Positions 23,701 through 29,833 of a stretch of 64,000 nucleotides of DNA are shown piece after piece; position 1 is the stretch's first letter, and each line of letters begins with the position of its first letter. The notes beneath the pieces were generated by a model. It was not told the DNA's origin and did no database searches. It worked only from the letters and a program-made list of their open reading frames with translations. Location of the stretch: NCBI RefSeq assembly GCF_029338295.1, contig NZ_CP119791.1, positions 1,798,001 to 1,862,000 on the forward strand, read 5' to 3'. This stretch comes from Haladaptatus sp. QDMS2. GTDB lineage: Archaea; Halobacteriota; Halobacteria; Halobacteriales; Halococcaceae. A program made the position numbers and the translations under genes.

Positions 23701-25575
23701 ATGGCGAGCAACAAGATTCTCGGTATCGACCTTGGTACCACGAACAGCGCGTTCGCGGTCATGGAGGGCGGTGACCCCGAGATTATCGTCAACAGTGAAG
23801 GGGACCGAACCACGCCCTCGGTGGTCGCGTTCACCGACGATGGCGAACGGTTAGTCGGGAAACCGGCCAAAAACCAGGCCATCCAGAACCCGGAGAAAAC
23901 CATTCAGTCCATCAAGCGTCACATGGGCGACGACTACTCCGTCGACATCGACGGAGAGGACTACACGCCGGAGCAGATTTCGGCGATGATTCTCCAGAAG
24001 ATAAAGCGCGACGCAGAAGACTACCTCGGCGACGAGATCGAGAAGGCGGTCATCACCGTACCGGCCTACTTCAACGACCGCCAGCGCCAGGCGACGAAAG
24101 ACGCGGGCGAAATCGCCGGCTTCGAAGTCGAGCGCATCGTCAACGAGCCGACCGCCGCGTCGATGGCGTACGGCCTGGACGACGACTCCGACCAGACCGT
24201 CCTCGTCTTCGACCTCGGTGGCGGGACGTTCGACGTCTCCATCCTCGACCTCGGCGGCGGCGTCTACGAAGTGGTCGCCACGAACGGGGACAACGAACTC
24301 GGTGGCGACGACTGGGACCAGGCCATCATCGACTGGCTCGCAGAGGAGTTCGAGGCCGAACACGGCATCGACCTTCGCGAGGACCGGCAGGCCCTCCAGC
24401 GTCTGAAGGACGCAGCAGAGGAGGCGAAAATCGAGCTCTCCAGCCGCAAGCAGACGGAGATCAACCTCCCGTTCATCACGGCCACGGACGACGGCCCGGT
24501 TCACTTAGAGAAGGACCTCTCTCGCGCGAAGTTCGAGAGTCTCACGTCCGACCTCATCGAGCGCACCGTTGGCCCAACGAAGCAGGCCCTCGAAGACGCC
24601 GGCTATGCCGCCTCCGAAATCGACGAAGTCATCCTCGTCGGTGGCTCGACTCGCATGCCGCAAGTCACGGAGAAGGTCGCAGACGTCGTCGGCCAAGAGC
24701 CGAAAAAGAACGTCAACCCCGACGAAGCCGTCGCTCTCGGCGCGGCGATTCAGGGTGGCGTCCTCTCCGGCGACGTGGACGACATCGTCCTGCTCGACGT
24801 GACCCCGCTTAGCCTCGGTATCGAAGTGAAAGGCGGCCTCTTCGAACGCCTCATCGAGAAGAACACCACCATTCCGACGGAGGAATCGAAGGTGTTCACG
24901 ACGGCCGCACCGAACCAGACCTCGGTGCAGGTCCGTGTCTTCCAGGGCGAGCGCGAAATCGCAGACCAGAACGAACTTCTCGGTGAGTTCCAGCTTTCAG
25001 GAATCCCACCCGCACCCGCCGGCACGCCGCAAATCGAAGTCACGTTCAACATCGACGAGAACGGTATCGTGAACGTCGAGGCGGAGGACAAAGGCTCCGG
25101 CAACGCCGAATCCATCACCATCGAAGGTGGCGCTGGCCTCTCTGACGACGAAATCGACCGCATGACCAAGGAAGCAGAGGAGCACGCAGAAGAGGACAAG
25201 GAGCGCCGTCGCCTCATCGAGGCGCGCAACGAGGCCGAAGGCTCCATCCAGCGTGCGAAGACCCTGCTCGACGAGAACGAGGAGAACGTCGACGACGAAC
25301 TCCGCGAGGACATCGAAGCCGCAATCGAGGACGTCGAAGCAACCCTCGAAGACGAGGACGCGACGGCCGACGAACTCGAAGACGCGACCGAGGACCTCGC
25401 CGAGAACCTCCAGGAAATCGGCAAGCGCATGTACCAGCAACAGCAGGCCCAGCAGCAGGCCGCAGGCGGCGCTGGCATGGGTGGCACGGGCGGCGACGCC
25501 GATGCCGAGACCAACGGCGGCGACGAATACGTCGACGCCGACTTCGAGGACGTAGACGACGAGAAGGACAACTAA
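23701..25575 (+). CDS. dnaK: Hsp70 chaperone DnaK
   Basis: DnaK (624 residues) is the ATP-driven Hsp70 chaperone. The actin-like nucleotide domain shows GIDLGTTNS (8-16), [19 protein letters not shown]-like sequence near 118, [13 protein letters not shown] near 170 and VGGSTRMP near 315. The substrate domain begins [14 protein letters not shown] near 365. The C-terminus is a Gln-rich then Gly/Asp-rich tail ending in [13 protein letters not shown]. The length is normal. Confidence 0.98.
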
Positions 25576-25674: not shown

Positions 25675-26160
25675 TCAGAGTACCTCGTCGTCCCGGTACT
25701 CGTACGTGTTCTCGGGAGAATCGTCGGCGAAGAAGCCGAAGGTCTCGTCGTCCCGCCGGAGATAGTCGTTTTCGAGCATCTCGGTGACGACTCGGCCGAG
25801 CGAATCGAGTTCCAGTTCGATGTCGTCGACGACCGCCGGGTCGAGTTCGTCGCGGGCGTCGTCGGAGATCGTCGGCGACCGATAGCCAACTTCGTCACTA
25901 CTGGCATCCCAATAGAAGTCGAACTCCTCGACGAGGTCGTATTCGAGGACGATTTCGAATTGGTCTTCGGACATCCCAGTGTGGGCCGCCCACTCGTCGA
26001 AGGCGTCCTCCCACGCACCGTCCGCTAAGATGGTCGCGAGTTCCTCTCGACGATAGTCGTCTTCGGGATTCTCGACCGGATTGGCAATCGCTTCGTAGGT
26101 GCCGCGGGACTGTGGCCCAGAGAGCGATGGTGGGTCCGGAATGGAAACGTCAAGCGCCAT
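25675..26160 (-). CDS. Uncharacterised acidic haloarchaeal protein
   Basis: This 161-residue, very acidic soluble protein begins MALDVSIPDPPSLSGPQSRG and continues with helical sequence (LATILADGAWEDAFDEWAAH, FDFYWDASSDEVGY). A TATA-like GTATTTTTC (26184-26194) lies about 25 bases upstream of the ATG at 26160. I do not recognise a family. It lies between dnaK and a small gene of the same strand. Confidence 0.7.
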   Translation of the reverse strand: MALDVSIPDPPSLSGPQSRGTYEAIANPVENPEDDYRREELATILADGAWEDAFDEWAAHTGMSEDQFEIVLEYDLVEEFDFYWDASSDEVGYRSPTISDDARDELDPAVVDDIELELDSLGRVVTEMLENDYLRRDDETFGFFADDSPENTYEYRDDEVL

Positions 26161-26216
26161 GCTAGACGATTCGTCGTTTGGTGAGAAAAATACGCCGTCT
26201 GCCAGCAGGAAGTCGG

Positions 26217-26426
26217 CTATTCGGTCGACTCCACGTCGATGTGGTGGACCGCGTTCGGGGACAGCAGGCGGCCACTCGAAACCTCGACCCACCCATTCAC
26301 CCGAATGCGAGCAGGGCCTTCGTGGAGAACTGTCGATTTGTCTTCGTCGCCGTAGATGACGACGTCGTCGTACTCATCTTCGAAAATTTGCGCGAACTCG
26401 TCGGCGAGCGATTCTGGTGAAATCAC
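26217..26426 (-). CDS. Small uncharacterised protein (69 residues)
   Basis: This short acidic protein starts at a GTG. MISPESLADEFAQIFEDEYDD forms a likely helix, then VVIYGDEDKSTVLHEG and ARIRVNGWVEVSSGRLLSP suggest a small beta sheet. ACATTTTTCACT (26452-26462), about 26-36 bases upstream, is a plausible promoter. The family is not recognised. Confidence 0.6.
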   Translation of the reverse strand: MISPESLADEFAQIFEDEYDDVVIYGDEDKSTVLHEGPARIRVNGWVEVSSGRLLSPNAVHHIDVESTE

Positions 26427-26510: not shown

Positions 26511-26813
26511 ATGTATCGACGAATCCTCGACGTCGGCGTCTTCCTGGTCATCGTCGCCATTCTCGGGTACGGAATCGTCATTCTCCAGCAGGTCCTGTTC
26601 GCGCTGGTTGCGGCGGTTGGTCTGTACCTCACGTACGCGGAGTGGAAAGGGGGCAAAGCGGAGCGCGCTCTCGTGCTTGTCTGCATCTGGGGGCTCCTCG
26701 CAGGGGCGTTCTGGACCGCGCGTCTCGAATTCGAACTCGGAGCTATCGTCGTGGCCATCATCGGGTATCTCGCGTGGGCGACGACGCGAAATCCCGACGA
26801 GCCGACGGTCTGA
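26511..26813 (+). CDS. Small membrane protein with about four hydrophobic segments
   Basis: This 100-residue protein has hydrophobic stretches near residues 7-25, 28-44, 54-68 and 75-91, separated by short charged turns (EWKGGKAER). An AT-rich promoter-like stretch precedes it at 26476-26490. It is convergent with the Rieske protein gene, with 3 bases between the stops. No family is recognised. Confidence 0.65.
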   Translation: MYRRILDVGVFLVIVAILGYGIVILQQVLFALVAAVGLYLTYAEWKGGKAERALVLVCIWGLLAGAFWTARLEFELGAIVVAIIGYLAWATTRNPDEPTV

Positions 26814-26816
26814 TGG

Positions 26817-28553
26817 CTATTCCTCGTAGATTTTCTCTCCCCGGTGCAACCGCGACGCAATCGTGAACGTCTGTTCTGCCTCCCGGCGCGTCGGGAAGTG
26901 AGCGGCCATGTAGCGGGCCGTCGCCATCAGCGCGAGTCGCTTTTCGGATTTGGACTCGGCCACCTCGAACTGCTTGAACGAGGCTTCTACGTTCTGGAGC
27001 GTGTGGAAGTTCGCGTCCTCGCGGAGCAGGGCCTCGCCGAGCGTCTGTATGAGGTCGGCGGGGTCGCCGCCACAGTCGAAGTGTTCACTCACGAGTGCTG
27101 CGGCCCGGTTCACCTCGCCCTCCTCGTCGAAGGCGTCCATGAGTTGGGCGCGGATGTCGGCGGGGTCGGTGTCCGACTCGCCGGGTTCGGGAAGTGGCGC
27201 TCGCGGCATGTTCAGGAAGCGGTCTAAGTACACCGAGATGGCTCCGTCGAAGACGCCGCGATAGAGTTCGACGGCGTCGGTCCGGTGGGTGGCCTGCTCT
27301 ACCGCGTTCGCGTAGGTGAACGTGTGGTGAACGGTGTTCCAGTCTGAGAACTCGTTGGACGTGGCGAAGTGAGCCACCCGGCGCATCGCGGCGATGGAGA
27401 CGGCGTGGGCGAGTTCCGTCGTGGTCGCGCCGGATTCGACGGCTTCTACGAGGGCATCGACGATTGCGTGCGGGTCGTCCTGCAGCAAGGTTTCGGTGAA
27501 GTTTTCGGGTTTCTGCCAGGTCTTTCCGCGGCCCGTTTCGACCATCTCGTCTAAGTCTGCGTAGGCGTCTGCGAGCAGGCCGGCCACGTCGATTGGCTGT
27601 CGCCACGAGGAGAGTTCCTCGCTGCGGGTCGCGCCGGTCAGTTCGTCGACGAGCGTCGGGAGAACGTTCGGGGCGCTGTCCCAGCCGATGTGGTCGAGCA
27701 CCTCGAACGCCTTGTTCACGAAGTCGAAGGAGTGGCCGGCGTTCAGATAGCGGTGGTCCGTCGCGGCAGTGTACATGATTTCTGCCACGTCCTCCGGCGG
27801 CAGGGAGCCAATCGCGGTGCGGAGGGTGCGTTCAGAGGGGTCGTTGTCCCGAACTTCGATGGTTTCGCGGAACCACGACTTGAGACGCGCTTTCGAGACG
27901 TCAGTCGTCGAGAAGCCGGGTTGCTCGAAGCGCGGCGGTTCGCCCGCCGCGTCGTTCGCGACGTACCGGAGGCCGGTGTAGAGGGCGCGTTTCTGGTCGA
28001 CCTCGGAGAGCGCGGGGAGGATGTTCGCCATCGCGGCGTGGACGGTCAGCCCGCTGCCCCACCCGGCGTCGCGGTACTTCGTGCCGAAATCGACGCCGGT
28101 TTTGATGGGCACAGCGGGGTCTTCGCCTTCATCTGCGAGACCGATAACAGCTTTCGCCATGACGAGGCTGAGGTTCTCCTGAAGGCCGTCTGCGAGGCGG
28201 TTTCGCCAGTGGGTGGCCGGCGGGACGGACGGTTCTGGGTCGGGGTCGATGAGAATGTCGTCACCATCTACGCGGACGGGGAACGTCTGGACGTCGTCTG
28301 CCCACGGGTCGAACGTATCACCGCAGGAGAGTTCGAAGCGGGCGTGGTGCCAGTGGCAGGTCAGGACGCCCTCGTCGACGGTTCCCTTGGAGAGCGGGAA
28401 TCCCATGTGCGGACAACGGTTGTCCACCGCGTACACCTGGTCTTCGTGGTAGAACAGGGCGACAGAGCGCCCGTGGTGTGAGACGATTTGCGTCCCCTCG
28501 TCTTTGAGCTGGGAGAGCGATGCGACGGGGACGAAGTCAGCTTCTGCAGCCAT
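26817..28553 (-). CDS. Rieske [2Fe-2S] domain fused to a large helical domain
   Basis: This is a 578-residue protein. Residues 1-105 form a Rieske ferredoxin-type domain with both cluster motifs, CPH (47-49) and CHWH (66-69), so the 2Fe-2S cluster can form. The remaining ~470 residues are helical and contain conserved-looking His-rich pieces such as SFDFVNKAFEVLDHIGW, WNTVHHTFTYANA and AHFPTRREAEQTF. They do not resemble the catalytic domain of ring-hydroxylating oxygenases. It is probably a cytoplasmic electron-transfer or redox enzyme, but the reaction is unknown. It lies between dnaK and dnaJ on the opposite strand. Confidence 0.85.
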   Translation of the reverse strand: MAAEADFVPVASLSQLKDEGTQIVSHHGRSVALFYHEDQVYAVDNRCPHMGFPLSKGTVDEGVLTCHWHHARFELSCGDTFDPWADDVQTFPVRVDGDDILIDPDPEPSVPPATHWRNRLADGLQENLSLVMAKAVIGLADEGEDPAVPIKTGVDFGTKYRDAGWGSGLTVHAAMANILPALSEVDQKRALYTGLRYVANDAAGEPPRFEQPGFSTTDVSKARLKSWFRETIEVRDNDPSERTLRTAIGSLPPEDVAEIMYTAATDHRYLNAGHSFDFVNKAFEVLDHIGWDSAPNVLPTLVDELTGATRSEELSSWRQPIDVAGLLADAYADLDEMVETGRGKTWQKPENFTETLLQDDPHAIVDALVEAVESGATTTELAHAVSIAAMRRVAHFATSNEFSDWNTVHHTFTYANAVEQATHRTDAVELYRGVFDGAISVYLDRFLNMPRAPLPEPGESDTDPADIRAQLMDAFDEEGEVNRAAALVSEHFDCGGDPADLIQTLGEALLREDANFHTLQNVEASFKQFEVAESKSEKRLALMATARYMAAHFPTRREAEQTFTIASRLHRGEKIYEE

Positions 28554-28681: not shown

Positions 28682-29833
28682 ATGAGCGAGGACTTCTACG
28701 AAGTGCTCGGCGTCTCGCGTGACGCTGACGAAGACGAGATAAAGAGCGCCTTCAGAAAGAAGGCAGCGCAGTATCACCCTGACGTCAGTGACGACCCCAA
28801 CGCAGACGAGAAGTTCAAGCAGGCGAAGAAAGCGAAGGAGGTCCTCTCTGACGAAGAGAAACGTCGCGCCTACGACCGCATGGGCCACGAGCGGTTCGAA
28901 CAGGCCGAAAAACGCGGCGGGTTCGACGGCGGCGCTGGCGGTGGCGGAGCCGGTGGCTTCGGCGGATTCGGCGGCGGCGGTGGCGGCATGGGCGGGATGA
29001 ACGACATCTTCGAGCAGTTCTTCGGCGGCGGCCGCAACCAGCGCAACGGCCCACGCCAGGGCCAGAACCTGCGCACGTCGATGACCATCACGCTACAGGA
29101 CGCCCACGACGGCCTCCAGCGCCAGTTCACCCTCACCCGGCCCGAACAGTGTGACGACTGTAACGGGAAGGGCCATCCCGCGGACGCCGACGCGGAGACC
29201 TGCCCACAATGTGACGGTCAGGGCCAGACTACCCACGTCCAGCAGACGCCACTCGGACGCATCCAGCAGACGCAGACCTGTAACCACTGTGGCGGCGAGG
29301 GCACGCTCTATTCGGAGACGTGTGACACCTGCCACGGCGACGGGCGCGTGCGCCGCGAGGCGACGCTTTCGGTGGACGTTCCGGCGGGCATCCGCGACGG
29401 CCAGACCCTCCGGATGGACGGCGAGGGCGCACCAGGTGAGAAAGGCGGGCCAAATGGCGACCTGCTCATCGACATCCAGGTCGAACCGCACCCGGACTTC
29501 GAGCGCGACGGCGACGACCTGTACTACCGCCACCCAATCTCCTTCCCGCAGGCCGTCTTCGGCGACAAGGTGGAAATCGAAACCCTCGACGGCAGCGTCA
29601 CCATGGACATCCCGAAGGGCACGCAATCGGGCGAAACCTTCCGCCTGAAAGGCAAGGGTATGCCGCGCCTGCGCCGCCGTAGCAAGGGAAGCATGTTCGT
29701 GAAGGTACAAGTCGTCACCCCGGAGAAACTCAGCAAAGAACAGAAGAAGGCGCTCAAGAAGTTCGCCGAAGCCGGCGGGGAGGAAGTGGACGTGAGCGAA
29801 GGCTTCTTCGAGAAGCTGAAGAACAGTTTCTAA
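28682..29833 (+). CDS. dnaJ: Hsp40 co-chaperone DnaJ
   Basis: DnaJ (383 residues) stimulates DnaK. The J domain has HPD at 32-34. A Gly/Phe-rich linker (about 80-120) contains long Gly runs. Four zinc-finger repeats are present: CDDCNGKG, CPQCDGQG, CNHCGGEG and CDTCHGDG. The C-terminal substrate-binding domain follows. It is separated from dnaK by about 3 kb and four other genes, so it is not in one operon with grpE-dnaK. A TATA-like region lies near 28646-28655. Confidence 0.97.
   Translation: MSEDFYEVLGVSRDADEDEIKSAFRKKAAQYHPDVSDDPNADEKFKQAKKAKEVLSDEEKRRAYDRMGHERFEQAEKRGGFDGGAGGGGAGGFGGFGGGGGGMGGMNDIFEQFFGGGRNQRNGPRQGQNLRTSMTITLQDAHDGLQRQFTLTRPEQCDDCNGKGHPADADAETCPQCDGQGQTTHVQQTPLGRIQQTQTCNHCGGEGTLYSETCDTCHGDGRVRREATLSVDVPAGIRDGQTLRMDGEGAPGEKGGPNGDLLIDIQVEPHPDFERDGDDLYYRHPISFPQAVFGDKVEIETLDGSVTMDIPKGTQSGETFRLKGKGMPRLRRRSKGSMFVKVQVVTPEKLSKEQKKALKKFAEAGGEEVDVSEGFFEKLKNSF

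Follow-up and report, generated by a model that had tools for sequence, protein, structure and literature searches.

Fungal polyketide pathways are the known setting of questin-oxidase-type enzymes. Their fold is represented in the PDB by BTG13, AflY and PaD, whose entries carry the names nonheme iron dioxygenase, questin oxidase and hydroquinone dioxygenase. The iron in BTG13 is held by four histidines and the carboxylated Lys377. Rieske oxygenases are the second point of comparison, and to our knowledge the known ones all use one catalytic fold. The gene described here lies in a stretch of 64,000 nucleotides from Haladaptatus sp. QDMS2 (contig NZ_CP119791.1, positions 1,798,001 to 1,862,000), referred to as the window, and encodes a Rieske domain followed by a helical domain that is predicted to have the questin-oxidase fold.

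Gene and genomic setting

The gene and its two chaperone neighbors are located in the window as follows:

26817..28553, minus strand: whole gene for the Rieske and questin-oxidase-like fusion, 578 amino acids, ATG start, TAG stop
23701..25575, plus strand: neighboring dnaK (NCBIfam PRK00290)
28682..29833, plus strand: divergent neighbor dnaJ (NCBIfam TIGR02349)

The frame at 26817 to 28553 is clearly coding, because its GC content at the three codon positions is 0.67/0.44/0.82 and homologs across the order share 58 to 91% identity with its product. The genome holds a single copy. The position between dnaK and dnaJ noted in an earlier sequence-only reading was borne out, with the gene on the strand opposite to both and smaller reading frames separating it from dnaK. 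In this gap, a 205-residue, very acidic frame (25675 to 26292, minus strand) and a hydrophobic frame of 100 residues (26511 to 26813, plus strand), which is probably a membrane protein, are both without a Pfam match. The dnaK/dnaJ setting is partly conserved, since the 122 neighboring proteins at 21 haloarchaeal loci include eight DnaJ, the commonest family near the gene, and four HSP70 proteins.

Nine cyanobacterial loci carry a gene for a SufR-like regulator at most two genes from the fusion gene, either adjoining or two genes off and in convergent or divergent orientation (among them L085, L086, L087, L089, L092, L101, L108 and L120). The two regulators that were scored against the SufR model reached 138 to 139 bits, short of the cutoff of 178.8. 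Such neighbors fit a protein whose iron-sulfur state matters to the cell. On a plasmid of Haladaptatus caseinilyticus (L058), hemE, hemG, hemH, an AsnC-type regulator and ribonucleotide reductase genes are found near the fusion gene. An alpha/beta hydrolase was considered as a regular partner in bacteria and dropped, as the examples fall into different hydrolase subfamilies. The neighbors at haloarchaeal and bacterial loci give no pointer to the substrate.

The Rieske domain and the conservation of the fusion

The N-terminal part of the protein contains the following features:

28239..28535, minus strand: Rieske [2Fe-2S] domain, residues 7 to 105 (Pfam PF00355, E 1.3e-15; fold match to Rieske ferredoxins)
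28407..28415, minus strand: first cluster motif, C47-P-H49, invariant in the homolog alignments
28347..28358, minus strand: second cluster motif, C66-H-W-H69, with C66 and H69 invariant in the homolog alignments

PF00355 spans residues 7 to 92 with 57.5 bits against a curated cutoff of 20.3, and is the sole Pfam match in the protein. Both motifs, CPH (47 to 49) and CHWH (66 to 69), are intact, as had been read from the letters, and all four cluster ligands are invariant among homologs, placing the domain in PF00355. The NCBIfam matches are to Rieske models only, every one below its cutoff; the NirD model TIGR02378 gave 55.9 bits against an equivalog cutoff of 74.65, and the protein is not assigned to it. 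NirD and the Rieske ferredoxins BphA3 and NDO ferredoxin have the same motifs as this domain and the same fold (Z up to 17.5). Those proteins are separate carriers or subunits, about 100 residues long, whereas the Rieske domain of the Haladaptatus protein is fused to a much larger partner.

All 18 genomes searched in the family encode the helical partner domain. Across the class, 85 of the 194 genomes sampled have it, spread over 46 of the 65 haloarchaeal genera sampled. A search of plasmids retrieved full-length homologs with 42 to 46% identity in Nostoc, Aulosira, Gloeothece, Sinorhizobium, Paraburkholderia, Microvirga, Priestia and Metabacillus, and a search of phages retrieved no homolog. 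With only the helical domain as query, a scan of genome contigs gave at least 553 relatives, the best 80 of which come from cyanobacteria, Chloroflexota, Planctomycetota, Actinomycetota (Rubrobacter), Acidobacteriota, Armatimonadota, Neomarinimicrobiota and one Nitrososphaeraceae bin; the fusion also occurs in Bacillota and Proteobacteria. Within these best 80, a Rieske motif of the CPH..C-x-W-H type lies upstream in 76 of the 76 loci with an intact start, the other four being short or open at the start, so the Rieske fusion is the rule. Conservation of the fusion, which the sequence-only reading had named as a point to check, thus extends over haloarchaea and several bacterial phyla, and a distant sister group (described below) is likewise Rieske fused. 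In the tree, the haloarchaeal proteins form one group with a support of 99/99.

Predicted fold of the helical domain

The remainder of the protein consists of a single large domain:

26820..28223, minus strand: C-terminal all-helical domain, residues 111 to 578, predicted questin-oxidase-like fold (AlphaFold2 pLDDT 93.9; Z 14.6 to 17.7 to BTG13, AflY and PaD)

For residues 106 to 578, Pfam and NCBIfam searches up to E 1 gave no family match, and no PDB sequence matched convincingly, even when a profile of 44 sequences was used. AlphaFold2 models were obtained for the full protein (pLDDT 87.9) and for the helical domain alone (37 sequences, pLDDT 93.9, pTM 0.92). The two models agree with each other, and both retrieve the questin-oxidase fold family. 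DSSP assigned helices and zero strands past residue 111. With the domain alone, the six PDB entries of the questin-oxidase fold rank first, each aligned over 320 to 335 residues: BTG13 with Z scores of 17.7 (7y3y), 17.6 (7y3x) and 16.4 (7y3w), AflY with 16.4 (8yxs), and PaD with 14.6 (8z4q and 8z4r). All other alignments cover at most about 115 residues, and the Z score drops to 6.1 after five C-terminal fragments of RarA/MgsA. The top Foldseek match of the helical-domain model is AflY (8yxs), with a probability of 0.96 and an E value of 0.011. The predicted model therefore places the domain in the fold of BTG13, AflY and PaD. The sequence-only reading had described a large unassigned helical domain; the model agrees that it is helical, and the domain can now be assigned, at the level of fold, to that of questin-oxidase-like nonheme iron dioxygenases.

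The helix-grip fold with a 2-His-1-Asp site that marks the alpha subunits of ring-hydroxylating oxygenases was not found, and the protein has no Pfam match beyond residue 102. The earlier judgment that the partner domain is neither a ring-hydroxylating oxygenase nor a nitrite reductase was right. The C-terminal domains of RarA/MgsA match the model in two places, residues 218 to 314 and 460 to 578 (108 to 204 and 350 to 468 in model numbering), with Z up to 12.5 and 9.8, and His274 and His517 occupy similar places in the two matches. This is a hint, taken from the model, that the questin-oxidase fold may be an internal duplication; comparison of the two RarA-like parts with each other and with PDB sequences found nothing at the sequence level.

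Sequence intermediates and a sister group

The Haladaptatus protein has no match to the questin-oxidase family PF14027 up to E 1, and 21 relatives have none up to E 10. Alignment by hhalign of the family profile with 11 bacterial PF14027-type proteins, both local and global, was not significant, and a PF14027 scan of 148 haloarchaeal genomes gave no match, but the control matched nowhere either. The sequence-only reading had named a clear match to a known enzyme family as counting against it; such a match was obtained for the fold and not for the sequence family.

Distant relatives were found by a family-profile search of Actinomycetota and Acidobacteriota. One of these, the Rieske-less L195 from Acidobacteriota, matches the family profile with an E value of 8.3e-7 and the bacterial questin-oxidase profile with an E value of 0.0021, both values coming from one set of about 6,100 proteins and shuffles. 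In weaker segments of the same protein, LHAPLA aligns with the NHAPM motif and YEHALI with the THGLI motif, which brings the questin ligand motifs into register. L195 is thus a sequence intermediate that joins the helical domain to the questin oxidase-like superfamily, with a second link (E 0.0021) that is modest. In three proteins, L195:1435-3123, L196:1-2514 and L197:1432-2715, no Rieske domain was detected and the HxxK motif is kept, and L196 perhaps has an exported N terminus. These three may represent families, as yet undescribed, that lie between PF14027 and the Rieske fusions.

L179, L180, L181 and L194 form a sister group, in which the Rieske domain was confirmed and the architecture is the same, with about 25% identity to the Haladaptatus protein. 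Three of its members match the family profile with E values of about 1e-31 to 1e-34. The hhalign comparison of this group with PF14027-type proteins gave one alignment that pairs THGLTYPNAVRW with the HxxT motif and AHAVK with DEHxIK (P 0.0088). In contrast to the group of the Haladaptatus protein, the sister group retains each of the five questin-type ligand positions, HxxK among them, and lacks His552, E313, W317 and E512. Common descent of the helical domain and the questin oxidases is well supported, because the sequence intermediates and the fold both point to it.

Candidate metal-site residues

In the BTG13 entries 7y3x and 7y3y, the mutated residues are H58 and T299; H158 and H296 are located by the alignments. 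The corresponding and additional candidate positions in the Haladaptatus protein are:

28053..28055, minus strand: S167, at the position of the first ligand-type histidine of the sister group, by motif that of BTG13 H58; histidine lost here
27753..27755, minus strand: His267, proposed metal ligand at the BTG13 H158 position (37/37 in one homolog alignment; profile scan)
27723..27734, minus strand: His274-Ser-Phe-Asp277, second-shell or ligand candidates, with H274 and D277 invariant across homolog alignments
27300..27344, minus strand: DWNTVHHTFTYANAV, residues 404 to 418, with His410 as proposed ligand and Thr413 at the BTG13 T299 position
26994..27023, minus strand: REDANFHTLQ, residues 511 to 520, with His517 as proposed ligand and Gln520 in place of the lysine of HxxK
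26898..26900, minus strand: His552, proposed replacement ligand (46/46 in the group of the Haladaptatus protein; none in the sister group or L195)

In independent profile scans, His267, His410 and His517 fall, in order, on the ligand-type columns H121, H245 and H313 of the bacterial questin-oxidase alignment, each motif match taken singly being only weakly better than shuffles (about 3 to 25%). A register with His274 at the BTG13 H158 position was dropped, since the profile scans place His267 there and the sister group agrees. The sister-group motifs at the questin ligand positions are GW-x-H or GM-x-H, DH or MH (267), TH-x-x-T (410/413) and H-x-V-K (517/520). H274, D277, H410, H517, Q520 and H552 are invariant in all 46 sequences of the Haladaptatus group, and E313 and E512 are likewise kept without exception in archaea and many bacterial phyla. 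Position 167 is never histidine in these 46 sequences, and position 267 is histidine except in four Proteobacteria (L051, L052, L053 and L057), which have arginine there and keep the other proposed ligands. Because arginine replaces His267, the proteobacterial group may carry a further changed metal site.

Of the questin ligand set of four histidines and the lysine of HxxK, H267, H410 and H517 are thus kept, and the H58 position and the lysine are lost. The alignments suggest that the site was rebuilt in this group, with two ligands lost, His552 gained and the invariant Asp277 and His274 perhaps nearby. With three of the five BTG13-type positions retained, and with Arg267 in four homologs from Proteobacteria, the metal site may differ from that of BTG13 or be absent. 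The earlier suggestion that His- and Trp-rich segments might bind metal or heme holds in part: some of the histidines are probably metal ligands, but the evidence lends heme no support. Both named segments are present. The histidine of HFATSNEF (His395) varies among homologs, and WNTVHHTF has one invariant histidine, the second (410), residue 409 being histidine or leucine in equal numbers among the aligned homologs. A heme cofactor was set aside as a candidate in view of the missing CxxCH motif and of a fold that lends no support, and heme binding by the helical domain is unlikely.

Proposed function and alternatives

We consider that the protein is probably a single-chain Rieske nonheme iron oxygenase, built unlike the classical ring-hydroxylating oxygenases and with remodeled metal ligands. 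Because a Rieske domain is joined to what the model gives as the fold of fungal ring-opening iron dioxygenases, it would probably be a self-contained oxygen-using enzyme. For this fusion protein we infer metal binding, electron transfer and activity as follows. Electrons would pass from a reductase to the N-terminal Rieske cluster and on to a mononuclear center in the helical domain, with iron or another metal held by His267, His410 and His517. His552 would be a fourth ligand that probably replaces the carboxylated lysine of BTG13 (Gln520 here), and the site may be completed by Asp277 or His274. This metal would activate O2 for the oxidation or cleavage of a small, probably aromatic or quinol-like substrate.

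One alternative, unlikely though worth weighing, is that the protein senses redox state or carries electrons, with the Rieske cluster as its sole cofactor. The helical domain would then be a questin-oxidase fold that has come to serve in protein binding or regulation, and dnaK/dnaJ or the SufR-like regulators might link the protein to stress. The lost H58- and Lys-type positions and the dnaJ and SufR-like neighbors would fit such a role, and noncatalytic forms seem to exist, given that L193 has lost most of the ligand residues yet matches the Rieske family. However, the invariance of H274, H410, H517, H552, D277, E313, E512 and Q520 over phyla in the Haladaptatus group is the pattern of an active site. 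L193 itself (L193:1051-2931, a sister-group member from Acidobacteriota) keeps the Rieske match and has D274, Q410, N517 and E520; judged from these residues, it is perhaps a metal-less, noncatalytic form.

We regard as quite improbable that the helical domain binds another cofactor or metal (di-iron, copper or heme) for reductive or isomerizing chemistry rather than O2 activation. The conserved H274, D277, E284, E313, E512, H517 and H552 could hold more than one metal, but among solved structures the whole-length fold matches are nonheme iron dioxygenases only, the candidate ligands map onto the questin set, and a CxxCH heme motif is missing. A generic helical-repeat resemblance without kinship is disfavored and very improbable: identities of 7 to 10%, an rmsd over 4 Å, the missing Pfam match, the negative direct hhalign result and the high Z scores often obtained with helical models speak for it, but whole-domain alignment is confined to questin-fold entries, with unrelated helical chains at Z 12.5 over 93 residues and then 6.1, and the L195 bridge and the sister-group ligand motifs are not expected by chance.

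The reading as a Rieske-fed nonheme iron oxygenase carries a broader one, to which we give about even chances, namely that these proteins are a second, independently evolved class of Rieske oxygenases, in whose widespread branch the carboxylated lysine is exchanged for glutamine plus the new His552, for a mostly all-His site. If true, many haloarchaea, cyanobacteria and members of other phyla would share a separate solution for feeding electrons to a nonheme iron oxygenase, and the fusion would be a natural case of ligand replacement, lysine to glutamine with a new histidine. The breadth of the fusion suggests an undescribed reaction in ordinary microbes. A search of open-access papers and of family libraries found no description of such a Rieske fusion.

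Comparison with known systems

The Haladaptatus protein has in common with the alpha subunits of ring-hydroxylating oxygenases that a Rieske domain lies upstream of a (here proposed) iron oxygenase domain in one chain. The catalytic domain of those enzymes is an alpha/beta helix-grip domain, whereas the partner domain here is all helical, and the fold match is limited to the Rieske part. With BTG13 (7y3w), AflY (8yxs) and PaD (8z4q), it is the helical domain that is shared, over about 330 residues of predicted fold. The likeness to BTG13 extends to the His..Thr motif (H296 and T299) and to histidines at the H158, H296 and HxxK positions. In contrast to proteins of the PF14027 kind, the Haladaptatus protein has no PF14027 match and no H58-type histidine, carries Gln520 for the lysine of HxxK, and adds the invariant His552 and the fused Rieske domain. 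It is thus not a PF14027 protein by score or by ligand set, and is tied to that family by its predicted fold and by the link through sequence intermediates.
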